Assembly: GCA_018725485.1 (NCBI GenBank)
Contig: QLUP01000024.1
Location: 1-11,245 of the forward strand
From: Candidatus Lithacetigena glycinireducens
GTDB taxonomy: Bacteria > Coprothermobacterota > HKB111
Direction of reading: 5' to 3'
Length of the DNA: 11,245 nt
Below are positions 256 through 11,159 of the stretch, one piece after another (within the stretch, counting starts at the first letter, position 1; every line of letters starts with the position of its first letter). Under the pieces are notes generated by a model that had not been told where the DNA came from, did no database searches, and saw nothing but the letters and a program-made list of their open reading frames with translations. Both the position numbers and the translations under genes were made by a program.

Positions 256-259
256 ACTT

Positions 260-288
260 GTAACCTTTTCCTGGTTTAAAAGGTCTAA
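260..288 (+). promoter_or_regulatory. Candidate ECF-type (autoregulatory) promoter
   Basis: GTAACC (260-265) and GTCTAA (283-288) are separated by 17 bases. This matches the general form of ECF promoters: an AAC-containing -35 and a GTC-containing -10. ECF sigma genes commonly carry such a promoter directly upstream and activate themselves, so this is likely the autoregulated promoter of the operon. The start point would fall at about 294-297, at or just before the ATG at 298, so this transcript would be leaderless or nearly so. Confidence 0.55.
263..284 (+). promoter_or_regulatory. Inverted repeat across the ECF promoter and the sigma-gene leader
   Basis: ACCTTTT (263-269) and AAAAGGT (278-284) form a perfect 7-bp inverted repeat with an 8-base loop. 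In DNA it spans the spacer and parts of both ECF promoter elements. In RNA started from the upstream -10 (near 262) it would form a hairpin at the extreme 5' end and enclose AAAAGG, the only Shine-Dalgarno-like sequence before the sigma gene. It could be an operator, an RNA-stabilising hairpin or a brake on translation. Confidence 0.35.
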
Positions 289-297
289 ATATAAAAT

Positions 298-825
298 ATG
301 GAAGAAAAAGAAATATTAGAGCAATTCAAAAAAGGACAGGAAGAAGCCTTTTTCCACCTCCTGGACTTATATGAGAAAGAGGTCTATACCCTCGCTTTAA
401 GGATTTTAGGCCATGCCGAAGATGCCCGGGACGCTTCTCAGGAAGCCTGGCTCAGAATTTATCGGGGGTTAAACCATTTTAGGGGGGAATCCACGCTTAA
501 AACCTGGATTTATCGTATAGCCTTCAACACTTCCCTGTCAGAATTAAAGAAAAAACACCGCTCGACTTCAATACCATTAGATGAGGAGGCAATCGGAGAG
601 TTTCCGGAAGAGTTTGGAGAAATTGAGAGCGCGCTTCTTAATTTACCAGATAAGTACAGAAGCGCTGTATCTTTAAGGGATATCTATGGTTATCCCTATG
701 AGGAAATAGCTAACATTATGAAAATATCTTTAAGTTCTGCCAAGGTGCTGGTGCATAGGGGTAGGATTAAACTAAAAAACAGGCTGGAAGAAGCCGGATT
801 AAATGAGGTAAAGAAATGGATTTAG
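298..825 (+). CDS. ECF-family RNA polymerase sigma factor
   Basis: This is a 175-residue sigma-70 family protein with only regions 2 and 4, the ECF layout. Region 2 spans roughly residues 20-85; its core DARDASQEAWLRIYRG (42-57) is followed by the WIYRIAFN segment (70-77) typical of promoter melting and -10 recognition. Region 4 spans about 108-165 and contains LPDKYR, the YEEIA helix-turn-helix start (134-138) and LVHRGRIKLKNRL, which contacts the -35 element. It would direct RNA polymerase to its own set of promoters, probably including the one at 260-288. The ATG at 298 is the only reasonable start; no alternative start codon lies before region 2. The Shine-Dalgarno is weak (AAAAGG about 14 bases upstream). 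The gene overlaps the next by 10 bases, the usual arrangement with a cognate anti-sigma gene. The family is certain; the signal and regulon are not visible. Confidence 0.93.
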   Translation: MEEKEILEQFKKGQEEAFFHLLDLYEKEVYTLALRILGHAEDARDASQEAWLRIYRGLNHFRGESTLKTWIYRIAFNTSLSELKKKHRSTSIPLDEEAIGEFPEEFGEIESALLNLPDKYRSAVSLRDIYGYPYEEIANIMKISLSSAKVLVHRGRIKLKNRLEEAGLNEVKKWI

Positions 826-1127
826 ATACTGCCGTGCTGGCCTACTTAAAGGGTGAGTTAAGCCCTCTCGTCAGCCAGAAAATGAAAAACCTTATTAATA
901 CCAAACCCTATATAAAACAGAAAGTTTTAGAGTGGCAATCATATGTTGCTAAAATGGAGTATTTAAGCGATAAAACCTATCCTATCCCAGTGGGTTACCG
1001 GGAACAATTAATAAAAAAACTGACCAAAAAAAATAATTATCTTCCCTGGGTAGGGGCTCTAACCATAATACCTGGATTGTTACTGGTTTTAGGTATTCGT
1101 CTGGCAAGAAAGAATAAGACTGCATGA
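816..1127 (+). CDS. Small one-pass membrane protein, putative anti-sigma factor
   Basis: This is a 103-residue protein that I recognise only by position and architecture. Residues 1-75 form a soluble, helix-rich region; its start (LDTAVLAYLKGELS) resembles the first helix of anti-sigma domains that clamp ECF factors. One hydrophobic segment spans about 76-96 (LPWVGALTIIPGLLLVLGI), followed by a 7-residue basic tail. The HxxxCxxC motif of zinc-containing anti-sigma factors is absent; the protein has no cysteine. With at most about ten residues past the membrane there is no room for an outer sensor domain. A good GAGGT site (805-809) lies 6 bases before the ATG. The start overlaps the sigma gene by 10 bases, and the stop overlaps the fabZ start as ATGA, so translation of the three is probably coupled. 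Basic residues flank both sides of the membrane segment, so topology is unclear. It could also be an unrelated small membrane protein. Confidence 0.6.
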   Translation: MDLDTAVLAYLKGELSPLVSQKMKNLINTKPYIKQKVLEWQSYVAKMEYLSDKTYPIPVGYREQLIKKLTKKNNYLPWVGALTIIPGLLLVLGIRLARKNKTA

Positions 1128-1534
1128 ACCCTGCAGATTTCATTCCCCATAGATATCCTTTTCTCCTGGTAGATAAACTGTTGGCCCTGGAAGCTGGTAC
1201 TTCGGCAACGGGTGTTAAAAAATGGAGTAAAGATGACCCCATTTTTCAAGGGCACTTTCCCGGAGAACCGGTGGTTCCAGGCGTGCTTTTACTGGAGGCT
1301 ATCGCTCAGGTGGGAGCAGCTGCGGTTTTAGCTCAGGCTGAACATAAAGGAAGGAAGGCTTTTCTGGCTAAAGTAGAAGAAGCCCGGTTTTTAAGGGTAG
1401 TTAGACCGGAAGAAGAAGTGAAATTAAAAACCACTGTTCGTATGTTAAAAGCTGGCTTTGGTGAAGGTATAGGTGAAGCCCTGGTAGGTGATGAAATAGC
1501 TGTAAAAGGGAAAATCATCTTTAAGGTGGTATAA
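1124..1534 (+). CDS. fabZ: 3-hydroxyacyl-ACP dehydratase FabZ
   Basis: FabZ removes water from 3-hydroxyacyl-ACP to give trans-2-enoyl-ACP, the third step of each fatty-acid elongation cycle, in the cytoplasm. The 136 residues match the usual family length and form one hot-dog fold. Diagnostic motifs are HRYPFLLVD at 9-17 and GHFPGEPVVPGVLLLEAIAQ at 43-62. The catalytic pair is His44 and Glu58, with the 14-residue spacing seen in characterised FabZ. The ATG at 1124 overlaps the stop of the preceding membrane-protein gene (ATGA) and has only a weak Shine-Dalgarno, so expression probably depends on translational coupling to the sigma/anti-sigma pair. No FabA-type isomerising dehydratase is present. 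FabZ is the more likely identity than FabA given its length and placement with fabK and fabH. Confidence 0.96.
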   Translation: MNPADFIPHRYPFLLVDKLLALEAGTSATGVKKWSKDDPIFQGHFPGEPVVPGVLLLEAIAQVGAAAVLAQAEHKGRKAFLAKVEEARFLRVVRPEEEVKLKTTVRMLKAGFGEGIGEALVGDEIAVKGKIIFKVV

Positions 1535-1536
1535 AT

Positions 1537-2490
1537 ATGATTAAAACCAGATTAACAGAAATGTTAAATTTAAAATATCCCATCTTTCAGGGGGGAATGG
1601 CCTGGGTGGCTACCCCAACTTTGGTAGCTGCGGTGTCAGAAGCTGGAGCCTTAGGTATTCTGGGTACCGGCCACCTCAATGGCGAAGAAACCCTGAAGGC
1701 TATCCGGGAAACCAGGGAAAAAACCACTAAACCTTTCGGAGTGAATATAATGCTTCAGTCTCCCCGGGTTTCAGAGATTATCAAGGTATGTTTAGAAGAG
1801 AAAGTACATCTGGTAACCTTTGGGGCAGGCAATCCTGCCATCTATATCCCTGCTTTTCAGGAGAAACGAATAATGGTTTTTCCCGTGGTTAACAGTGTGT
1901 CGCTGGCTATAAGGCTTAAAAGAACCGGTGTGGAGGGAATCATTGCTGAAGGAAGAGAAGCGGGAGGGCATGTAGGCAAAAACGCCACCTTACCACTCAT
2001 CCCTCAAATTGTAGATGCGACTAATCTACCGGTAGTAGCCGCAGGTGGTTTTGCTGACGGCAGAGGTTTGCTGGCGGCTTTATCGCTGGGAGCGGTAGGA
2101 GTACAGATGGGTACAAGGTTTATTTGCACGCAGGAAGCCGAGGTGCATCTTAACTATAAAGAAGCCATTATTAAAGCCGGAGATTTAAGCACCATGGTAA
2201 CCGGGGAAACCTTCGGACATCCGGTAAGGGTAATTCGTAATCAGCTGGCTAATAAAGTACTGGAACTGGAAAAAAAAGGAGCTTCTCTGGAAGAATTTGA
2301 AACAATAGGTGTGGGTGCTTTAAAAAAAGCTGTTAATAACGGGGATATGATAAATGGTTCGCTGATGGCTGGGGAAATCTCGGGATTAATTAATGATATT
2401 CCTTCAGTAGCACAGGTCTTATGCAGAATAGAAGAAGAATTTTTAATCGGTTTTAATTTGCTTAAGATTCAACTTGAATGTCAGGACTGA
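1537..2490 (+). CDS. fabK: Enoyl-ACP reductase II (FabK), FMN-dependent
   Basis: FabK reduces trans-2-enoyl-ACP to acyl-ACP using FMN and NAD(P)H, the last step of each elongation cycle. The 317-residue TIM-barrel protein belongs to the FabK/nitronate-monooxygenase superfamily. Visible markers are the YPIFQGGMAWV start (14-24), the EGREAGGHVG signature (138-147) with the conserved His145, AAGGFADGRG (168-177) and GVQMGTRF (188-195), the last two shaping the FMN phosphate site. The context inside a fatty-acid cluster favours FabK over nitronate monooxygenase. An AAGGTGG site (1523-1529) lies 7 bases before the ATG, and the gap from fabZ is 2 bases. No FabI, FabL or FabV is seen in the window, so this is its only enoyl reductase. 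FabK enzymes are insensitive to triclosan, a family property not tested here. Confidence 0.93.
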   Translation: MIKTRLTEMLNLKYPIFQGGMAWVATPTLVAAVSEAGALGILGTGHLNGEETLKAIRETREKTTKPFGVNIMLQSPRVSEIIKVCLEEKVHLVTFGAGNPAIYIPAFQEKRIMVFPVVNSVSLAIRLKRTGVEGIIAEGREAGGHVGKNATLPLIPQIVDATNLPVVAAGGFADGRGLLAALSLGAVGVQMGTRFICTQEAEVHLNYKEAIIKAGDLSTMVTGETFGHPVRVIRNQLANKVLELEKKGASLEEFETIGVGALKKAVNNGDMINGSLMAGEISGLINDIPSVAQVLCRIEEEFLIGFNLLKIQLECQD

Positions 2491-3491
2491 ATTTAGTGAC
2501 GATTAAGCATAAAAATAATTTGGGTGTTAAAATTGCTGGTTGTGGTTTTTTTGTTCCAGAGAGAAAATTAACCAATCTGGATTTGGAAAAGATGGTTGAT
2601 ACCTCTGATGAATGGATTCTCCAGAGGACCGGGATTAAGGAAAGATACCTTACTCCTGAGGGCGTAGCCAGTTCTGACCTGGCGGTTCATTCCTCTTTGC
2701 AGGCTATAAAATCAGCAGGGATAAAAAAGATAGATTTAATTATCGTGACTACGGTAACACCTGATTACCCCGTGCCTGCTGGCGCTAACCTCTTGCAGGA
2801 TAAAATTGGAGCTACCAAAGCAGGAGCCTTTGACCTTAATGCAGGTTGCTCGGGGTTTTCTTACGGATTAGTAACGGGTAGTCAGTTCATCATTAGCGGT
2901 AATTATAAAAATGTGTTGGTAGTGGGAGTGGACACTCTCTCGCGGATAACCGATTTTACCGATAGAAACACCTGCGTGCTTTTAGGTGATGGTGCCGGTT
3001 CGGTAGTTTTGCAAAGAGATGAAGGGGAAAGCGGACCCGTAGCCTTTACCCTCGGATCTGATGGCGGAAAGTACGATTCCATCATAGTCCCGGCAGGTGG
3101 AAGCCTGCATCCAGCTTCTATTGCCAGTATTGAAAATAAAAGTCATTTTGTAAGGATGGACGGTCGGGCTGTTTTTGAGTTTGCGGTAAATAAAACTGTC
3201 GGGGTTATTCAGGAAGTTTTAGATAAAGCCCGTCTGAATATTAAGGATATAGACTATTTTCTGTTGCATCAGGCAAACCTGAGAATATTGGAAGGCATAA
3301 GCAGGAAGCTAAAAATACCCTGGTCTAAAATTCTGGTAAATATAGATAGGTATGGCAATACCTCAGCCGCCTCCCTGCCTATCCTCTTAACCGAAGCCAT
3401 CAATGAAGATAAGATTAAAAAAGGGCAACTCCTGTTGTTTGCTGGTTTTGGAGCAGGGTTATCCTGGGGAGTAACCATCTGGAGATGGTAG
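2478..3491 (+). CDS. fabH: 3-oxoacyl-ACP synthase III FabH
   Basis: FabH condenses acetyl- or branched acyl-CoA with malonyl-ACP to begin fatty-acid chains. The thiolase-fold protein carries the full triad: Cys124 in NAGCSGF, His264 in LLHQAN and Asn294 in YGNTSAAS. Other family marks are the DTSDEWILQRTGI block (41-53) and the final GFGAGLSWG. Counted from ATG 2478 it has 337 residues, with an N-terminal extension of about 16 residues before the usual VKIAGCG strand, and it overlaps fabK by 13 bases. An alternative start, GTG at 2496, removes six residues and has AGGA (2483-2486) at 9 bases; ATG 2478 has no clear site, so the shorter form is quite possible. Primer preference (straight or branched) cannot be read from the sequence. 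FabH is in the position that sets initiation rate and often chain type. Confidence 0.95.
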   Translation: MSGLNLVTIKHKNNLGVKIAGCGFFVPERKLTNLDLEKMVDTSDEWILQRTGIKERYLTPEGVASSDLAVHSSLQAIKSAGIKKIDLIIVTTVTPDYPVPAGANLLQDKIGATKAGAFDLNAGCSGFSYGLVTGSQFIISGNYKNVLVVGVDTLSRITDFTDRNTCVLLGDGAGSVVLQRDEGESGPVAFTLGSDGGKYDSIIVPAGGSLHPASIASIENKSHFVRMDGRAVFEFAVNKTVGVIQEVLDKARLNIKDIDYFLLHQANLRILEGISRKLKIPWSKILVNIDRYGNTSAASLPILLTEAINEDKIKKGQLLLFAGFGAGLSWGVTIWRW

Positions 3492-3501
3492 GAAGCATAA
3501 A

Positions 3502-4365
3502 ATGAATTTACTCAACCGGTTAAACTGGCTTAGAAAACCCAAAGTTAAAACCGGGATAACCGATTATACCTCAACAGTTCCCGATAATATCTGGATTAAA
3601 TGCGAAAGTTGCCAGACCCTGATTTATAATAACGATTTAATAGAAAACTTAAAAGTTTGTCCTCATTGTAATCATCATCATCGCCTGACAGCCCGCGAAC
3701 AGATATCCCAGATTTGCGACCCGGGAACTTTCTATGAAGAAGATGCCAGCCTATCTTCCAGAGATACATTAGGTTTTAAAGATACCCAGAGTTATGTGGT
3801 AAAACTGAAAGAGGCTAAGAAAAAAACTGGGTTATCTGAAGCAGTAATAACCGGCATAGGTCAGATAGGCAGTTACCGGGTGGGTATGGCAGTTATGGAT
3901 TTTAATTTCCTCGGGGGGAGTATGGGGTCGGTAATGGGTGAGAAATTAGTCAGGATTATTTATAAAGCTATTAAGGAAGAGTTACCCCTGATAATAATCT
4001 GTGCTTCAGGTGGAGCCAGAATGCAAGAAGGCATTCTTTCCCTGTTTCAGATGGCCAAAATAAATTATGCCCTTAACGAATTCTCTTCTAAATCACTGCT
4101 TTTTATCTCAGTCTTAACCAATCCCACCACTGGCGGGGTGACTGCATCCTTTGCTTATGCAGCGGATATAGTTTTGGCGGAAGAGGGAGCGCTCATTGGT
4201 TTTGCCGGTCCACGGGTGATTGAGCAAACTACTAAATTGAAATTACCTGAGGGGTTTCAAAGGGCGAATTTCTTGCTGGATAAGGGTATGGTTGACCGGG
4301 TAGTCAATAGAAAATCCCTTAAATCCACCCTTATTAGCATTCTGGAGTTTAATTATGGAAGATAA
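3502..4365 (+). CDS. accD: Acetyl-CoA carboxylase carboxyltransferase subunit beta (AccD)
   Basis: AccD pairs with AccA to transfer the carboxyl group from carboxybiotin on AccB to acetyl-CoA, making malonyl-CoA, the committed step of fatty-acid synthesis. The 287 residues match the family. An N-terminal four-cysteine zinc ribbon is intact: Cys34 and Cys37, then Cys53 and Cys56. The crotonase-like core follows, with MDFNFLGGSMGSVMGEK and SGGARMQEG, and later PTTGGVTASFA and GFAGPRVIEQT. AGGA (3490-3493) lies 8 bases before the ATG, and the gap from fabH is 10 bases. The gene overlaps accA by 11 bases, which suits equal production of the two subunits of the alpha2beta2 complex. Identity is secure because the zinc ribbon separates AccD from propionyl-CoA carboxylase relatives. 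Confidence 0.97.
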   Translation: MNLLNRLNWLRKPKVKTGITDYTSTVPDNIWIKCESCQTLIYNNDLIENLKVCPHCNHHHRLTAREQISQICDPGTFYEEDASLSSRDTLGFKDTQSYVVKLKEAKKKTGLSEAVITGIGQIGSYRVGMAVMDFNFLGGSMGSVMGEKLVRIIYKAIKEELPLIIICASGGARMQEGILSLFQMAKINYALNEFSSKSLLFISVLTNPTTGGVTASFAYAADIVLAEEGALIGFAGPRVIEQTTKLKLPEGFQRANFLLDKGMVDRVVNRKSLKSTLISILEFNYGR

Positions 4366-5287
4366 GTTAATCTTTGAATTACCCCTGCTGGAGATGGAAG
4401 AAAAGATCAGGTTATTAATTGAAAAAGAGGGTGAAAGTAGAGATACAGCTAAACTCACCCAGCTTTTGAAAAAAAAGGAAAAAGAGATATACGAGAATTT
4501 AACTCCCTGGCAGGTCGTCCAGTTAGCCAGGTACCAAGGACGACCCAGAAGCCTGGATTATATAAATATAATATTTGAGAATTTCCTGGAGCTTCATGGA
4601 GACAGGCGTTTTGGCGATGACCCGGCTATGGTGGGTGGTTTAGCTTTCTTTAATAAACGCACGGTAATGGTTATAGCACAGCAGAAAGGCAGAGGCGTAG
4701 ATGACAACCTGTTTAGAAGGTTTGCTATGCCCAATCCTGAAGGTTACCGTAAAGCCCAGAGGCTGATGAAGTTAGCCGAAAAGATGAATATTCCTATTAT
4801 TACCCTGGTGGACACACCTGGTGCTTACCCGGGCATAGAAAGTGAAGAAAGAGGGCAGGCAGAGGCTATTTCTCAAAGCATATCCTTGATGTTAAGTTTA
4901 AAGATTCCTACCATCGCCATCGTAATTGGCGAGGGTGGTTCTGGCGGGGCTTTAGCCATAGCTTCGGCAGATAAGATTTTGATGTTAAAATATGCCATCT
5001 TTTCGGTTATTTCGCCCGAAGGCTGTGCCGCTATACTCTGGAAAGACGAGAAATACACCGAGAAAGCAGCCGGTGAATTAAAACTTACTGCCCGAGACCT
5101 TTTGAAGTTAAAAATCATAGACGGAATTATTGAAGAACCCTTAAGAGGAGCGCATTATAATCCCGGTCAGGTTGCCAGGAATATTTCTGATTCCTTAAAT
5201 CATCAACTGGAACTTTTAAGAAACCTGCCTGCGGATACTCTTAAGCAACTTAGAAAAGAGAAATACCTTAAAATAGGCAAGATTTGA
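4355..5287 (+). CDS. accA: Acetyl-CoA carboxylase carboxyltransferase subunit alpha (AccA)
   Basis: AccA is the partner of AccD in the carboxyltransferase half of acetyl-CoA carboxylase. The 310-residue protein begins with a charged, probably helical or coiled region (about 10-50), as is usual for AccA, and continues with RPRSLDYI (63-70) and HGDRRFGDDPAMVGGLA (81-97). Then come the MPNPEGYRKA block (125-134), LVDTPGAYPG (151-160) and the oxyanion and carboxybiotin site IGEGGSGGALAI (191-202). GGAG (4344-4347) is 7 bases before the ATG, inside the end of accD. The separate alpha and beta genes mark the heteromeric bacterial enzyme rather than a fused carboxyltransferase. Length and motifs are normal; nothing suggests damage. 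Confidence 0.97.
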   Translation: MEDKLIFELPLLEMEEKIRLLIEKEGESRDTAKLTQLLKKKEKEIYENLTPWQVVQLARYQGRPRSLDYINIIFENFLELHGDRRFGDDPAMVGGLAFFNKRTVMVIAQQKGRGVDDNLFRRFAMPNPEGYRKAQRLMKLAEKMNIPIITLVDTPGAYPGIESEERGQAEAISQSISLMLSLKIPTIAIVIGEGGSGGALAIASADKILMLKYAIFSVISPEGCAAILWKDEKYTEKAAGELKLTARDLLKLKIIDGIIEEPLRGAHYNPGQVARNISDSLNHQLELLRNLPADTLKQLRKEKYLKIGKI

Positions 5288-5296
5288 AAAGGAGAT

Positions 5297-5301
5297 GGGA
5301 G
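5297..5301 (+). promoter_or_regulatory. Shine-Dalgarno site that sets the accB start
   Basis: GGGAG lies 8 bases before the ATG at 5310. The earlier in-frame ATG at 5295 directly abuts its own AAAAGGAG, leaving no spacer, so ribosomes should start at 5310. Confidence 0.65.
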
Positions 5302-5309
5302 CCAGTAAA

Positions 5310-5753
5310 ATGGATAATTATTTACAGCGGTTAAAAGAACTGATTGAGATATTAAAAAAGGAAAATCTAACAGAAATTTCTATTGAGGATAATAAGTTTA
5401 AGGTAAGTATAAAAAGAAACCACCCCAGCTCCTTGCCTGTAAATGTGCCTGTAAATACACCACAGCCATTGTTAAACCAGAAGATAACTGAAGAAATAAG
5501 CATAGAGGAAGGCTACCGTGAAATAACCTCTCCATTGGTGGGAATCGTAAGACTAATTAGAAATGATGGAACTCCTTACCTTAAAGTGGGGAATCAGATA
5601 AAAAAAGGTCAGACCGTATGCGTGATTGAAGCTATGAAAGTGCTAAATGAAGTTTCCTCCCAGGTAGCGGGAAAGGTAGTTAGAATTATGGTAAAAGATA
5701 AACAGTTAGTAGAGTATGGACAAACCCTAACTTTAGTGGAAGAGGATGTTTAA
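5310..5753 (+). CDS. accB: Biotin carboxyl carrier protein of acetyl-CoA carboxylase (AccB)
   Basis: AccB carries the biotin that shuttles CO2 from AccC to AccA/AccD. I take the ATG at 5310 (147 residues) because it has GGGAG at an 8-base spacing; ATG 5295 would add five residues but touches its Shine-Dalgarno. The protein has an N-terminal helical segment (DNYLQRLKELIEILKKEN), a strand-rich stretch, a Pro/Val/Asn linker (PVNVPVNTPQP), and a C-terminal biotinyl domain. The biotin-accepting lysine is Lys110 in EAMKVLNEV (codon 5637-5639), close to the canonical EAMKMMNEI. The linker is shorter than the Ala/Pro-rich thumb linkers of many AccB proteins. The stop overlaps accC by 8 bases, and the cognate ligase gene lies just after accC, so carrier, carboxylase and ligase are made together. 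Confidence 0.95.
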   Translation: MDNYLQRLKELIEILKKENLTEISIEDNKFKVSIKRNHPSSLPVNVPVNTPQPLLNQKITEEISIEEGYREITSPLVGIVRLIRNDGTPYLKVGNQIKKGQTVCVIEAMKVLNEVSSQVAGKVVRIMVKDKQLVEYGQTLTLVEEDV

Positions 5754-7083
5754 AAAAATACTGATTGCCAATAGGGGAGAGATTGCTGTAAGAATAATCA
5801 GGACCTGCCGGGAAATGGGTATCCCTACGGTAGCCATTTATTCTCAAGCAGACAGGGACAGTCTGCATGTAAAGTTTGCCGATGAAGCCTTCTGTGTAGG
5901 AGGTCCTGCTTCCAGGGATAGCTATCTCAATATACCCAATATACTGAGCGGTGCAGATGTTTTACAGGTAGAAGCCATACATCCCGGATACGGTTTTCTA
6001 TCAGAAAACGCCCGTTTTGTTAAAATCCTGGAAGAGTGTAATTTTAAGTTTATCGGACCTTCCAGAGAATCCATTGAGTTAGGCTCTCATAAAGCCCATA
6101 CCTGTGATACCATGAAAACTGCAGGTCTTCCTATCGTAGAAGGTTTTCGCGGAAATACCGAAGATGAACAGGATTTGTTGAATAAGATAAAAAATATAGG
6201 TTTTCCAGTCATGCTTAAAGCTTCTGCTGGGGGTGGTGGCAAGGGTATGAGAATAGTACATAATGAGAAAGAATTGGCAAAAATGGTTCCAATGGTTAAA
6301 AAAGAAGCAGAGATAAGCTTTGGCTCTGGCGATTTCTATGTAGAGAAATACTTAGGGGATGTCCGGCACATAGAGTTTCAGGTATTAGCTGATAATTATG
6401 GTGAAATAATACATCTCGGTGAAAGAGAATGCACCATTCAAAGACGCCACCAGAAGATTATTGAAGAATCGCCCAGTCCTTTCCTTGATGAACAATTAAG
6501 AGAAGAGATGGCTGAGTCTGCCATAGAAGGAGCTAGATCCCTTAAATATAGAAGTCTTGGTACTATGGAATTTTTAGTGGATAGCAAGCGGAACTTTTAT
6601 TTTATAGAGATAAATACCCGTATTCAGGTAGAACATCCGGTTACGGAAATGGTGTTTGGTCTGGACTTAGTTAGAGAGCAAATCCAGTTAGCAGCCGGGA
6701 AAAAGTTATCCCTGAAACAATCACAGGCCAGACCCAAAGGTCATTGTATTGAGTGTCGGATTCTGGCTGAAGATATAGATAAAGGGTTTATACCATCAAC
6801 AGGAAAGATTGAGGGTTTATATATTCCAGGTGGTTTCGGGGTAAGGGTGGACACGCATATCTACTCGGGATACGAGATTACTCCCTACTACGATTCCCTG
6901 CTGGCAAAATTAATCTGCTGGGGTAAAGACAGGAAAGAAGCCATTGTTAGATGTTATAACTCTTTAGATGAGTTTAATATTACCGGGGTTAAAACCAATA
7001 TCCCCCTCCTTAAAAGGATAATGAAAGATAAAGAATTTATAAAGGGTAATTTTACCACGGATTATCTGGGGAAAATGGCGTAA
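5746..7083 (+). CDS. accC: Biotin carboxylase subunit of acetyl-CoA carboxylase (AccC)
   Basis: AccC uses ATP and bicarbonate to carboxylate the biotin on AccB. Its 445 residues are close to the 449 of E. coli AccC, and the conserved residues fall at nearly the same numbers. The N-terminal domain starts KKILIANRGEIAVRI. The ATP-grasp core has Lys116, the glycine-rich loop KASAGGGGKGMR (158-169), GERECTIQRRHQK (225-237), Glu288, and the catalytic stretch Arg292-Gln294-Val295-Glu296 in NTRIQVEHPVTEM. Arg338 is present too. Around Lys116 the family's GDK/GSK pattern reads GSHK, a small oddity that keeps the lysine. The ATG at 5746 overlaps accB by 8 bases. There is no fused biotinyl or transferase domain, which rules out pyruvate carboxylase and fits the separate accB, accA and accD genes nearby. 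Confidence 0.97.
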   Translation: MFKKILIANRGEIAVRIIRTCREMGIPTVAIYSQADRDSLHVKFADEAFCVGGPASRDSYLNIPNILSGADVLQVEAIHPGYGFLSENARFVKILEECNFKFIGPSRESIELGSHKAHTCDTMKTAGLPIVEGFRGNTEDEQDLLNKIKNIGFPVMLKASAGGGGKGMRIVHNEKELAKMVPMVKKEAEISFGSGDFYVEKYLGDVRHIEFQVLADNYGEIIHLGERECTIQRRHQKIIEESPSPFLDEQLREEMAESAIEGARSLKYRSLGTMEFLVDSKRNFYFIEINTRIQVEHPVTEMVFGLDLVREQIQLAAGKKLSLKQSQARPKGHCIECRILAEDIDKGFIPSTGKIEGLYIPGGFGVRVDTHIYSGYEITPYYDSLLAKLICWGKDRKEAIVRCYNSLDEFNITGVKTNIPLLKRIMKDKEFIKGNFTTDYLGKMA

Positions 7084-7085
7084 AT

Positions 7086-7775
7086 ATGAAACCTTACCGG
7101 GAGATTGGCCATAAAATAATCTGGTTAGAAGAGGTTGATTCTACCAACAATTACGCTAAGAACCTGGCTGAAAAAGGTGAAGAGGAAGGAATTGTGGTGG
7201 TAGCCAGAAAGCAGACCTGCGGGAGGGGTAGAGAAGACAGAAACTGGATATCACCTGAAGGTGGCCTGTATCTGTCTTTTATTCTAAGACCTGTTTTTCC
7301 TGTTAAAGAATTAACACCGATAACGCTGCTATCTGCGGTTGCGGTTTTAGAAGCCGTAGAAGACATAACCTCTCTTAAATGCCAGTTGAAGTGGCCTAAC
7401 GACCTTTTACTACACGGTAAAAAAGTATGCGGTATCTTGACTGAAAGCAAGGTGGTGGGAGAAACGGTAGTCTATGTAGTGGTAGGGATAGGAGTCAATG
7501 TAAATAATAGTATTGAAGAATTAAATGCTGGTTTACAGTACCCGGCTGTTTCTCTTAAGGAAAAGTTAGGGTATGACATAGAAATATCTATATTATTAAA
7601 GGAAATCATACGGAACCTTAATAAATATTATCCATTAACTCTTAGTAAGGGATGGAGTTTTATTGTTAAAAAATGGAAAGAAAAACTTTACCAGGTTGAT
7701 AAAGAGTTACGGGAGCCCATTATTCACCTGCAAGACTTTCTTTCCTTAGAAAACGAAGAAGGCGAATTAGCCTGA
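7086..7775 (+). CDS. birA: Biotin-[acetyl-CoA carboxylase] ligase, catalytic domain only
   Basis: This enzyme makes biotinyl-AMP and transfers biotin to the AccB lysine. The catalytic core is clear: the EVDSTNNYAK start (16-25), the biotinyl-AMP loop TCGRGREDRNWISPEGGLYLS (44-64 region, key residues Gly46-Arg47-Gly48-Arg49), KWPNDLLL (102-109), GKKVCGILTE (111-120) and VGIGVNVN (133-140). At 229 residues it lacks the N-terminal winged helix of bifunctional BirA, so it should not repress biotin genes. The C-terminal SH3-like domain looks cut short: the protein ends at EEGELA, where relatives usually continue for perhaps 15-25 residues to an SGEV-like end. The stop (TGA 7773-7775) shares a base with the fabD ATG, so there is no room downstream. 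The gap after accC is 2 bases. The family is certain; the symbol refers to ligase activity only. Confidence 0.93.
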   Translation: MKPYREIGHKIIWLEEVDSTNNYAKNLAEKGEEEGIVVVARKQTCGRGREDRNWISPEGGLYLSFILRPVFPVKELTPITLLSAVAVLEAVEDITSLKCQLKWPNDLLLHGKKVCGILTESKVVGETVVYVVVGIGVNVNNSIEELNAGLQYPAVSLKEKLGYDIEISILLKEIIRNLNKYYPLTLSKGWSFIVKKWKEKLYQVDKELREPIIHLQDFLSLENEEGELA

Positions 7776-8692
7776 TGTTAGCTTTATTATTTCCCGGACA
7801 GGGCTCTCAGTACCCCGGAATGCATAAAAAATGGCTGGCATATAAAGCATTTAGTTCTACACTGGAAGAGGCAGGAGACTATTTGAAACTAAACCTGTTG
7901 TCCCTGTTAGAAGAAGGTTCGGGTGAACAATTACAGCAAACTTCCCTCGCCCAGCCTTTAATTTTAACGGTAAGCTATGGGATTCTGAAAGTTCTTAAAG
8001 AAAAAGGTCTTAAAGAAGGAGCGGTTCTCGGGCATAGCCTCGGTTCCTATACCGCTCTCCTAGCTTCAGGCGTAGTATCCTTTGAAGATGGTTTGAGTAT
8101 AACCAGAAAAAGAGGAGAGATGGTGGAAGAACTTTTAGGCAGGGATTTTAAGGGTGGACTGGTGGCGGTGATGGGATTGGAAGAAACTTCAGTAAGAGAA
8201 ATTTTAAATAACCATCCCCTGCTGGATATTACCAATGTCAATGCTCCGGAGCAGATAGTGGTAGGTGGCAAAGAAGAAGATATTGCCTGCTTAATGGTTG
8301 AACTTAAAGAGAAAAGAATAAGGGCTGTTAAACTTTCAGTCTCCCACCCTTTTCATACTAGATACCTGAAAGAAATGGTACCCCTGTTTGAACAGTTTCT
8401 GGCTGGTTTTTCTTTTCAAACACCAGCTGTTTATTATATTTCTCCTAGCCTGGCTCAGGTTTTGGAGGAGGGAGAAGATGTAAAAAAGGTTCTGGCACAG
8501 GAATTAATAACACCGGTGCATTTCGTAAATAGCCTGAGAAAAGTTCGGGAACTGGGAGCTGACTGTTTTCTGGAAGTTGGTCCTGGTGATGTTTTAAGCA
8601 GGCTCACCAAAAGAGTTTTACCAGAGGTAAAAATAGCCTCTATTGATTCAGAAGGGCTGGAGGTTTTAGGGAGGTTAGGATATGTTTCCTGA
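7775..8692 (+). CDS. fabD: Malonyl-CoA:ACP transacylase FabD
   Basis: FabD transfers malonyl from malonyl-CoA, the product of the acc genes upstream, to ACP. The 305-residue protein opens with the family signature LLFPGQGSQYPGM (4-16). The nucleophile is Ser88 in GHSLGSY, the malonate-binding arginine is probably Arg113 in RKRGEM, and the catalytic histidine is probably His194 in SHPFHTRYL. The C-terminal FLEVGPGDVL motif is also present. The usual Met-Gln after the arginine region (RGxxMQ) reads RGEMVEE, a modest variation. The ATG shares its A with the birA stop (TGATG); GAAGAAGG ends 12 bases upstream, a poor spacing, so translational reinitiation is likely. It overlaps fabG by 11 bases. 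Confidence 0.96.
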   Translation: MLALLFPGQGSQYPGMHKKWLAYKAFSSTLEEAGDYLKLNLLSLLEEGSGEQLQQTSLAQPLILTVSYGILKVLKEKGLKEGAVLGHSLGSYTALLASGVVSFEDGLSITRKRGEMVEELLGRDFKGGLVAVMGLEETSVREILNNHPLLDITNVNAPEQIVVGGKEEDIACLMVELKEKRIRAVKLSVSHPFHTRYLKEMVPLFEQFLAGFSFQTPAVYYISPSLAQVLEEGEDVKKVLAQELITPVHFVNSLRKVRELGADCFLEVGPGDVLSRLTKRVLPEVKIASIDSEGLEVLGRLGYVS

Positions 8693-9434
8693 GGTTGCGT
8701 TGGTAACAGGTGGAACAAAAGGGATAGGCAGGGCTATAACCCTGCAATTTCTGCAGGAAGGTATTAAGGTGGTAGCTCTTTACCGGGGTGATGAGAAAGC
8801 CAGGGAGGAATTGGAAATAGAGGTAGAAGAGCTGTCAAAAACCGGGGAAATGGGAAAGCTGCTGGTTCTTAAGGGCGATATTTCTCAGGCTGAAGAGGTA
8901 AAACGGGTGGTTTCTCAGGTAAAAGAGATTTACCCCCGTATTGATGTACTGGTAAATAACGCTGGCATTACCCGTGATGGACTCTTTCTCAGAATGAAAG
9001 AGGAAGATTTTATGGCGGTCTTAAGTACTAACTTTCTGGGTGCTTGCCATATAACCCGGGAGGTTCTGCCTTTAATGGTAAAAGCCCGAAGGGGTAGGAT
9101 TATAAATCTGGCTTCGGTGGTGGGTATGGTGGGGAATATTGGACAGACTAATTATGCTTCTTCCAAGGCGGCTCTGATTGGTTTCACCAAGTCTCTGGCG
9201 AGAGAAGTTGCTCCCTTTGGCATTACTGTTAATGCCATAGCTCCGGGTTATATAGAAACAGAGTTAACCGGTAAACTCCCGGATACTATAAAAGATGAAT
9301 TTCTTAAAAAAATACCGGTAAAAAGATTTGGCCAACCAGCTGAAGTTGCCTGGTTGGTAAAGTATCTGGCTTCTGAGGAAGCAGCCTATATTACCGGGCA
9401 GGTGATAGTAATAGATGGCGGTCTTACTGCCTGA
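8682..9434 (+). CDS. fabG: 3-oxoacyl-ACP reductase FabG
   Basis: FabG reduces 3-oxoacyl-ACP to 3-hydroxyacyl-ACP with NADPH. This is a 250-residue classical short-chain dehydrogenase: nucleotide-binding TGGTKGIG (9-16), the GDIS acidic turn (65-68), NNAG (92-95), and the catalytic set Asn117, Ser145, Tyr158 and Lys162 (YASSK). It ends with ITGQVIVIDGGLTA. The N-terminus is slightly short, going almost directly into the first strand (VALVTG) without the usual LKGK lead. AGGGAGGT (8668-8675) is 6 bases before the ATG and lies inside the end of fabD, giving an 11-base overlap. Many short-chain reductases look alike; the position between fabD and acpP makes FabG the sound call. Confidence 0.96.
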   Translation: MFPEVALVTGGTKGIGRAITLQFLQEGIKVVALYRGDEKAREELEIEVEELSKTGEMGKLLVLKGDISQAEEVKRVVSQVKEIYPRIDVLVNNAGITRDGLFLRMKEEDFMAVLSTNFLGACHITREVLPLMVKARRGRIINLASVVGMVGNIGQTNYASSKAALIGFTKSLAREVAPFGITVNAIAPGYIETELTGKLPDTIKDEFLKKIPVKRFGQPAEVAWLVKYLASEEAAYITGQVIVIDGGLTA

Positions 9435-9444
9435 TACATTAATG

Positions 9445-9452
9445 AAAGGAGG
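9445..9452 (+). promoter_or_regulatory. Consensus Shine-Dalgarno of acpP
   Basis: AAAGGAGG lies 8 bases before the acpP ATG, in the largest intergenic gap of the operon (26 bases). It is the strongest ribosome-binding site in the train and suits the high ACP level cells need. Confidence 0.8.
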
Positions 9453-9460
9453 TTTAAAAA

Positions 9461-9703
9461 ATGGAAAGAATTGAGATTTTTAATGCTGTTAAACAAGTGG
9501 TGATTGAACGGCTGGGTGTTTCTGAAGACCAGGTGGTAGAAGAAGCCGAGTTTGTAAAAGATTTAGGCGCTGATTCCCTGTACCTGGTGGATATAGTGAT
9601 GGAACTAGAGGAAAAGTTTAAGGTAAGGGTAGAAGATAGTGATTTTGAGAAGTTAAAAACTATTAAAAACGCAGTTGATTATATCTTCCAAAAGCTGGGT
9701 TGA
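9461..9703 (+). CDS. acpP: Acyl carrier protein
   Basis: ACP holds growing acyl chains on a phosphopantetheine arm. The 80-residue acidic protein has the usual length and four-helix pattern. The attachment site is Ser39 in LGADSL (35-40), and helix II continues [11 protein letters not shown]. The two residues after DSL are Tyr-Leu rather than the more common Asp/Met-Thr/Val, a small change at the partner-binding face. The ATG follows a consensus AAAGGAGG at 8 bases. The stop (TGA 9701-9703) overlaps the TTG start of fabF. No phosphopantetheinyl transferase (acpS) is in the window, so it must be encoded elsewhere. Placement between fabG and fabF is the classical fabD-fabG-acpP-fabF order. Confidence 0.97.
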
Positions 9704-10956
9704 AAAAATTGAAGCGTAGAGTTGTGGTAACCGGTATCGGTGTTATAACTTCCTTAGGCAAGGATAAAAACATCTTTTTTGACTATCTTTTACAGGGTAA
9801 ATCTGGTATTAGTGAGATACCTCATCTCAGGGAAGCTGGATGTCCGGTGATTATTGGTTCAGCAGTTACTGATTTTGTGCCCCTTAATTATCTGGATTTT
9901 AAAGAGGTTAGAATATGCGATAGGATTACCCAGTTTACCCTGGCCTGTGCCGGTCTGGCTCTACAAGACTCGCGATTAGAAATAAAAAGCCTTGACCCAT
10001 ACCGGGTAGGTGTTTATCTGGGAGCAGGGATTGGGGGGATTTTATCTTTTGAAGAGCAGTACACCCGGTATCTCAAAGATGGCTCGTCCCGTGTATCTCC
10101 TTTTACCGTCACCATGATGATACCCAATATTTCCTCAGCCTGGGTATCTTTAAAACATAGTATTAAGGGTCCCGCTTTAACCATTTCCACAGCCTGCGCT
10201 GCTTCGTTAAATGCTATTGGTGAAGCTTTCAAACTTATAAGGGAGGGCAGCCTGGATCTGGTTTTAACAGGGGGAGCAGAAGCCTCTTTAACGCCTTTTG
10301 TAGTATCTGCTTTTAATAATATGAAAGCTCTTTCCACCCGGAATCTTGAGCCAGCCAGAGCTTCCAGGCCCTTTGACCGGGAAAGAGACGGCTTTGTTAT
10401 GGGTGAAGGGGGAGGGATTCTGGTTCTGGAAGAATTGAATCAAGCTCTTAACCGGGGGGCTACCCTATATGCTGAGGTAGCTGGTTATGGGACAAACTCC
10501 GATGCTTATCATATAACCGCCCCCCACCAGGAGGGAGAGGGAGCCATCAGGGCTATGCAAGACGCCGTAAAAGATGCCGGCCTAAGCCTGGAAGATATTG
10601 ATTACATCAACGCCCACGGCACTTCTACCCCTTTAAATGACCGGATAGAAACCTTAGCCATTAAGAAACTTTTTGGTGAACATGCCTATAAACTGAAGAT
10701 TAGTTCTACTAAATCAATGATTGGCCACCTGCTGGGTGGTGCTGGAGCAGTAGAAAGTATAGCCACTGTACTGTCCCTTTATAATGGAATCTTACACCCC
10801 ACTATGAATTATGAGGTTCCCGACCCGGAGTGTGATTTAGACTATGTTCCCAATGTGGCAATTAAACCAGCAGGAGGAATTGAGGTAGCTTTAAAGAACG
10901 CTTTTGGTTTTGGCGGGCACAATGCGGTGCTGGTTTATAAAAAATTCCATTCATAA
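9700..10956 (+). CDS. fabF: 3-oxoacyl-ACP synthase II FabF
   Basis: FabF condenses acyl-ACP with malonyl-ACP to extend the chain by two carbons. The 418-residue protein starts [15 protein letters not shown] and has the complete active site: Cys166 in STACAAS, His306 in [11 protein letters not shown], Lys338 and His343 in STKSMIGH, and the C-terminal gating motif NAFGFGGHN. The start is a TTG, either 9700 (overlapping the acpP stop, GTTGA) or 9709 three codons later; no ATG or GTG lies before the first conserved strand, and Shine-Dalgarno support is weak for both. Translation is probably coupled to acpP. Cys-His-His, rather than the Cys-His-Asn triad of FabH, places it with FabF/FabB; with no fabA present, FabF is the better name. 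It is the last gene of the train. Confidence 0.96.
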
Positions 10957-11001
10957 ATAGTGGGGTTGAGAGTACTCTAAGGTTAATTATAAATGTTTCT
11001 T

Positions 11002-11122
11002 GTCACTCTTGACTTAGGTCCAGAGACTCTTACCTCCCCTGTCATCGCGAGAGCCTGAAAGGCTCGTGGCGATCTAATGTTTTCTCTTCCCCTGTCACTC
11101 TGGACCCCGATCCAGAGTCTCT
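11002..11122. repeat. Composite of two diverged hairpin repeats around a third hairpin
   Basis: Two 29-base units, 11002-11030 and 11094-11122, both begin GTCACTCT and agree at 23 of 29 positions. Each folds: the first as CTCT-GAC with GTC-AGAG around one mismatch (11006-11025), the second as a perfect 8-bp stem ACTCTGGA/TCCAGAGT (11097-11104, 11111-11118). The stem is kept although the loops differ. Between them a third unit, starting CCCCTGTCA like the second copy, forms the hairpin at 11044-11073. This looks like an interspersed palindromic repeat of the REP/MITE-like kind found in many bacterial intergenic regions. The 203-base gap 10957-11159 holds no supportable gene. Confidence 0.6.
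11044..11084 (+). terminator. Possible intrinsic terminator after fabF
   Basis: ATCGC (11044-11048) pairs with GCGAT (11069-11073), and GAGCCT (11051-11056) with AGGCTC (11060-11065) around a three-base loop; the two stems are separated by a small GA/GTG internal loop. CTAATGTTTTCT follows, with a four-T run at 11080-11083. The T run is short and offset six bases from the stem, so termination would be partial at best. The hairpin is also part of the repeat cluster, which may be its only nature. Confidence 0.3.
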
Positions 11123-11159
11123 GGTTTAAATAAATGAAAGAGAGGTTGTCAACAGTAAA

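Follow-up and report, generated by a model that had tools for sequence, protein, structure and literature searches.

A probable sigma/anti-sigma switch for membrane-lipid synthesis within the fatty-acid operon of Coprothermobacterota

To our knowledge, fatty-acid synthesis is controlled mostly by repressors and activators, and extracytoplasmic function (ECF) sigma factors have been seen only tuning it from a distance or when overexpressed. FapR, FabT, FadR and FabR are DNA-binding repressors or activators that sense malonyl-CoA or acyl chains. The 11,245-nucleotide stretch of Candidatus Lithacetigena glycinireducens DNA analysed here (the window; contig QLUP01000024.1) carries, in one run with fab and acc genes, an ECF sigma factor gene and a gene for a 103-residue membrane protein. 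Comparison with relatives makes it likely that these two genes encode a sigma/anti-sigma switch dedicated to membrane-lipid synthesis, which forms part of the fatty-acid operon and was already present in the ancestor of the phylum Coprothermobacterota. Such a switch would, like FapR, FabT, FadR and FabR, match fab genes to membrane-lipid demand.

Overexpression of Pseudomonas aeruginosa SigX raises acetyl-CoA carboxylase (ACC), FabD, FabG, FabZ, FabB and acyl carrier protein and alters membrane fluidity (PMC3875570). The sigma factor described here is, like SigX, an ECF factor and is probably tied to fatty-acid synthesis, but SigX acts on many scattered genes and is not reported to be encoded in a fab operon (PMC3875570). 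In strain PA14, fabH3-PA14_21550-PA14_21560 is a predicted operon of a fab gene, an ECF sigma factor and an anti-sigma factor; the fab gene is a single alternative fabH paralogue rather than the main pathway, and the ECF factor was shown not to activate fatty-acid genes (PMC3875570). The Bacillus subtilis sigma-W promoter lies inside fabHa of the fabHa-fabF operon, whereas sigW-rsiW is not part of a fab operon; sigma-W has a broad envelope regulon and tunes chain length only, and fabHa-fabF is unresponsive in known inducing conditions (PMC3498285). The Escherichia coli sigma-E regulon includes fabZ, within the bamA-lpxD-fabZ-lpxA operon, and the glycerol-phosphate acyltransferase gene plsB, but it is a broad outer-membrane stress regulon and rpoE is not in a fab operon, where the pair described here resides (PMC2731931). 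None of SigX, the PA14 pair, sigma-W or sigma-E represents a sigma/anti-sigma pair that forms part of the main fab operon and stays with it throughout a phylum, and we found no paper describing this operon. An earlier note on this DNA, made from its letters alone, had presented an ECF pair as the first genes of a whole fab-acc operon as unusual, naming sigma-W as a factor that adjusts fab transcription from a distance; SigX, the PA14 fabH3 operon and sigma-W are precedents for links between ECF factors and fab genes.

The window is contig C122 of its genome (G000; 1.24 Mb assembly, 83% complete). The comparison set comprised nine genomes for the phylum, several of them incomplete: G000 and its congener G001, the two genomes of the window's class; the Coprothermobacter family (G002, G003, G004 and G005); a third family (G007 and G008); and G006, a Coprothermobacter relative that is 95% complete. 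Fourteen genes, all on the + strand, span 298-10956 in the order sigma, 103-residue membrane protein, fabZ, fabK, fabH, accD, accA, accB, accC, birA, fabD, fabG, acpP and fabF, and the largest gap is 26 bp (fabG-acpP). The anti-sigma gene overlaps the sigma gene by 10 bp and shares the ATGA at 1124-1127 with fabZ, its stop being the TGA and the fabZ start the ATG. The run is presumably one transcript. The open reading frames, coordinates, families, ATGA overlap and uninterrupted train of the earlier note are all borne out. Its twelve lipid-synthesis genes are twelve fab, acc and birA genes, although birA, a biotin ligase, is an accessory gene. The features are as follows.

259..288, + strand: candidate ECF-type promoter, TGTAAC-N18-GTCTAA; sole strict match in its own genome, hexamers and spacing as at the fab operon of G002, G003, G004, G007 and G008
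298..825, + strand: ECF sigma factor, 175 residues, sigma2 and sigma4 domains; ATG start, TAG stop; Pfam Sigma70_r2 and r4_2 above cut-off; in a clade with relatives' fab-linked sigma factors
816..1127, + strand: predicted tail-anchored class I anti-sigma factor, 103 residues; homology to a Coprothermobacter zf-HC2 protein, RsiW profile match, fold
1124..1534, + strand: fabZ; NCBIfam PRK00006 above cut-off
1537..2490, + strand: fabK-type enoyl-ACP reductase; TIGR03151, E 2.6e-124
2478..3491, + strand: fabH; TIGR00747 above cut-off
3502..4365, + strand: accD; TIGR00515 above cut-off
4355..5287, + strand: accA; TIGR00513 above cut-off
5295..5753, + strand: accB, biotin carboxyl carrier protein; TIGR00531, E 3.6e-28; Pfam Biotin_lipoyl
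5746..7083, + strand: accC; TIGR00514 above cut-off
7086..7775, + strand: birA-type biotin ligase without DNA-binding domain; TIGR00121 above cut-off
7775..8692, + strand: fabD; TIGR00128, E 1.6e-70
8682..9434, + strand: fabG; TIGR01830 above cut-off
9461..9703, + strand: acpP; TIGR00517 above cut-off
9700..10956, + strand: fabF, TTG start; TIGR03150 above cut-off

The enzyme genes match their NCBIfam or Pfam families; FabK, FabD and the biotin carboxyl carrier protein fall below the NCBIfam equivalog cut-offs, yet their E-values are very low. As the earlier note had observed, there is no gene of FapR, FabT, FadR or FabR type among the open reading frames of the window, the rest of the genome not having been searched for them.

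The sigma protein has the architecture of ECF group IV, with Sigma70_r2 at residues 23-88, r4_2 at 108-159 and no other domains. In a tree with 22 other ECF factors from Coprothermobacterota and other phyla, the seven fab-linked sigma factors form one clade (support 87/77; 86% of bootstrap trees). The linkage to fabZ and fabK, for which the earlier note had proposed a neighbourhood search, is kept in six further genomes. In G002, G003, G004 and G005 and in G007 and G008, the genes for sigma, small protein and fabZ follow one another directly, in this order and in one direction. The operon of these two families reads fabD (with a second fabD in Coprothermobacter), fabG, acpP, fabF, sigma, anti-sigma, fabZ, fabK, and has no fabH, acc or birA gene there; besides the sigma/anti-sigma/fabZ joints, genes also overlap at the relatives' fabF/sigma joint. 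Judged by gene order, the sigma-anti-sigma-fabZ-fabK bond is old, because the same order occurs in two other families with the pair internal, and the head position in a larger, acc-containing operon is peculiar to the window's lineage. Two claims of the earlier note are narrowed by this. The pair heads the operon in the window, but follows fabF in both other families; likewise, the malonyl-CoA step belongs to the operon in the window, but acc genes are absent from the operons read in Coprothermobacter and the third family, so that among the loci read they lie within the operon only in the window's lineage.

A fragmented metagenome assembly could in principle yield a chance motif and a chance gene order, and the contig does begin 297 bp 5' of the sigma gene, its first 165 bases being dispersed repeats. 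However, the sigma-anti-sigma-fabZ-fabK order is also found in G003 (1 contig) and G002 (2 contigs), which are complete or near-complete. This refutes the explanation for the linkage, and as a whole we regard it as scarcely credible. Further, neither fabZ, fabF, this sigma factor nor the strict motif was detected in the 95% complete genome of G006, which fits the linkage of sigma and fab genes. Three plsY-type genes were seen in G006 despite the lack of detectable fabZ and fabF, and this organism probably depends on outside fatty acids.

The window's 103-residue protein alone has no Pfam or NCBIfam match, and its identity comes from relatives and from fold. The Coprothermobacter counterparts, in the same place and 25-27% identical to the window copy, hit zf-HC2 at E 3e-10; they have the zinc version of the class I anti-sigma domain (ASDI), with Hx3Cx2C present as HLQNCNSC. 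This motif is missing from the window and third-family copies. The ASDI class, defined by three N-terminal helices and a separate fourth helix, holds both zinc-motif and zinc-less members, Hx3Cx2C being optional, so its absence does not exclude class I membership (PMC7406223). A profile built from the seven copies and run against the PDB gave RsiW, the anti-sigma factor of sigma-W, as its top hit (E 0.0047), followed by RslA (E 1.1). The window structure, predicted from the single sequence with a predicted local distance difference test (pLDDT) score of 71, has helices at residues 3-11, 17-29, 31-52, 61-72 and 85-99, the last being the membrane helix, and shows the ASDI layout of three N-terminal helices and a fourth. 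Fold comparison used Foldseek and then ranking by VIA-align Z. The top five structural matches are RsiW, RskA, RslA, MucA and ChrR, all anti-sigma domains (VIA-align Z 6.3 to 4.3), with unrelated chains at 2.9 or below; Foldseek gave the same names with no E below 0.001, so the fold argument leans on the ranking and the VIA-align Z. In all copies, no more than a few charged residues (9 or fewer; about 9 in the window copy) follow the membrane helix, and the protein would therefore have no outer sensory domain. On its relatives' homology and its predicted fold, the 103-residue protein is a tail-anchored class I anti-sigma factor, and it would inhibit this sigma factor. The ECF sigma/membrane anti-sigma pair of the earlier note thus stands, given the Pfam sigma domains together with the relatives' zf-HC2 match, the RsiW profile match and the fold.

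The same note had supposed an ECF promoter ahead of the sigma gene, and a candidate is present there: TGTAAC-N18-GTCTAA at 259-288, upstream of the sigma ATG (298). We defined the strict motif as TGTAAC-N18-RTCTAA and counted hits genome-wide, with the reversed pattern as control. Sites with identical hexamers and spacing occur ahead of fabD in G007 and G008; in G002, G003 and G004 they fall between fabD1 and fabD2. Altogether the strict motif occurs at the fab operon in 6/6 genomes that have both the sigma gene and an assembled operon start, the G005 contig ending too early. Strict hits number 1 in the window's genome, 0 in G001 and G006 and at most three elsewhere, and the chance expectation is about 0.17 per Mb per strand, or about 3e-5 per 200 bp. 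When families are compared, 11-12 of the 12 hexamer bases are unchanged but 3-5 of the 18 spacer bases, the pattern expected of a promoter. A second strict site precedes plsY in three genomes of the Coprothermobacter family (G002 versus G003: hexamers 12/12, spacer 6/18), and the motif was not found at plsY of G006, which has no such sigma gene. We infer that the sigma factor reads the TGTAAC-N18-RTCTAA motif. With 0-3 strict sites per genome and no enrichment at one mismatch, the counts suggest a narrow regulon, though weaker sites could still exist. The predicted transcription start almost coincides with the sigma ATG, lying at most a few bases away, and no Shine-Dalgarno sequence precedes this ATG, so a transcript from 259-288 would have almost no leader, and the sigma transcript is possibly leaderless.

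The motif could instead be real but belong to another regulator, either another ECF sigma factor or a repressor bound over a vegetative promoter, with the pair merely sharing the operon. The motif is tied to this sigma factor solely by co-occurrence, and every genome has other ECF paralogues. Against this, AAC in the -35 element, TCTAA in the conserved -10 element and the fixed spacing are the layout of an ECF promoter, as expected if the predicted site at 259-288 is the sigma factor's own, and strict sites are absent from G001 and G006, which do not have this sigma factor but still have other ECF factors. We consider this alternative very unlikely.

An ordinary envelope-stress ECF pair might also ride as a passenger in a fab operon driven throughout by a vegetative promoter, its real targets lying elsewhere. 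There are precedents. The PA14_21550 factor behind fabH3, which did not activate fatty-acid genes, is one. Another comes from a sigma-queried scan of genome contigs, which returned only distant RpoE-type loci (80 fetched) and served for this comparison only: fabF, often with the rest of fabH-fabD-fabG-acpP-fabF, lies 5' of rpoE in 22/80 loci (including L009 and L086), mostly from Betaproteobacteria, with no reported role for rpoE in that operon. The fabF-rpoE distance is 0.5 to 2.4 kb in the two loci read closely, a looser neighbourhood, and these betaproteobacterial loci are possibly a second ECF/fab neighbourhood. Weak sigma-70-like sites also occur upstream in the window, for example at 216-243. 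The interval 1050-1124, where the earlier note would have had a strong separate promoter count against it, has no sigma-70-like site that stands out, and the whole window has 23 matches versus 21.1 ± 5 in shuffles. A passenger pair fits poorly with three observations: the pair's position shifted, being internal in two families and first in the window's, while its bond to fabZ stayed; whatever the arrangement, the operon start has kept the ECF-type motif; and the sigma gene is missing where the fab genes are missing. Overall, we judge a passenger pair unlikely.

Several observations weigh against a dedicated, ancestral switch. The window anti-sigma protein has no Pfam match of its own and has lost its zinc ligands, while the window sigma factor has moderate tree support (87/77) and a long branch. 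Strict hits total 14 versus 8 in the reversed control, and at one mismatch there is no enrichment (101 versus 124); the case rests on strict sites at conserved positions, not on counts. The plsY motif is confined to the Coprothermobacter family, with no strict motif at plsY of G000, G001, G007 or G008. Within that family, the operon motif sits between fabD1 and fabD2, which means that fabD1 has another promoter. Finally, no sigma ortholog was detected in the congener G001, although its fab genes are present, at 85% DNA identity. Homology ends at the fabZ ATG; immediately 5' of fabZ, where the window has sigma and anti-sigma, G001 has a TnpB gene of the IS200/IS605 kind, at a contig end (C253; L098 5012-6212). 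The apparent left end of this element is next to TTAC, and the ancestral ATGA overlap is seemingly preserved. In G001 the sigma gene may have been lost or be dispensable, or it may sit in an assembly gap.

Other motif matches were considered separately. A wider regulon drawn from one-mismatch sites was dropped, since these are not enriched and most lie inside open reading frames; the strict hits L165 and L166 are likewise within open reading frames and look like chance. A strict TGTAAC-N18-ATCTAA is conserved in G007 and G008 (L161 1501-1530 and L168 1501-1530) between genes for a thioredoxin-reductase-like protein and a TAXI-type binding protein, but points away from both and was set aside. 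One strict G007 site precedes a DegV/FakB-type gene and carries little weight, as strict matches arise by chance at such a rate. In G007, a second FabK-like gene is preceded, at a distance of 48 bp, by TGTAAC-N18-CTCTAA (C40; L220 362-391), with a matching site in G008 (C86). Coprothermobacter has two fabD genes in tandem (L133 16686-17525 and L140 571-1413) that flank the ECF-type promoter.

If the pair is a dedicated switch, the anti-sigma factor would tether the sigma factor at the cytoplasmic membrane through its class I domain and C-terminal membrane helix. Released sigma factor would steer RNA polymerase to TGTAAC-N18-RTCTAA sites at the fab operon in three families and, in Coprothermobacter, at plsY, the entry of acyl chains into phospholipid. 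Transcription of the operon would then yield more sigma and more anti-sigma factor, giving a fast but self-limiting rise in acyl-chain supply. The positive-feedback loop of the earlier note survives in part: because both sigma and anti-sigma belong to the operon, the response would be self-reinforcing but autoregulated, with its own brake. As there is no predicted outer domain, our guess for the likeliest trigger is a bilayer change or cleavage of the membrane helix by a protease. A more ambitious version, in which transcription of plsY and the entire fatty-acid pathway is governed chiefly by this phylum-wide ECF switch and the anti-sigma factor reads the state of the bilayer itself, appears rather doubtful to us; if true, lipid supply would be set by a sigma factor that is encoded in its own target operon and senses that operon's product.

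Some features lie beside the operon or elsewhere in these genomes. Repeats dispersed in the genus occupy 1-165 on its 5' side, 95-165 having many copies in G000 and G001. A 65-bp match of 1-65 in G001 (C101) was rejected as an orthologous flank, since it is a repeat that neighbours a Y-family polymerase locus. On the 3' side, 10957-11140 resembles a repeat and contains a hairpin (11097-11118). No Rfam family was found in the window. Contigs C156 and C24 of G000 carry a second cluster, in which several ketosynthases accompany a FabZ-like gene, and a 2050-residue frame that contains a ketosynthase. Another ECF sigma gene, with a 225-residue anti-sigma-like protein, lies directly behind the enolase gene in G001 (C200; L088 1408-2685), with a relative in G000 (C126).

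The conserved gene order and motif suggest that Coprothermobacterota use a built-in sigma switch for membrane-lipid synthesis rather than the usual repressors. An essential pathway would then have its own sigma and anti-sigma factor, conserved across the phylum though the surrounding operon was rearranged. The signal that sets membrane-lipid synthesis becomes testable in a two-protein system and a cultured organism, C. proteolyticus DSM 5265, and a tail-anchored anti-sigma factor with no outer domain would be a good candidate for a direct sensor of the bilayer.

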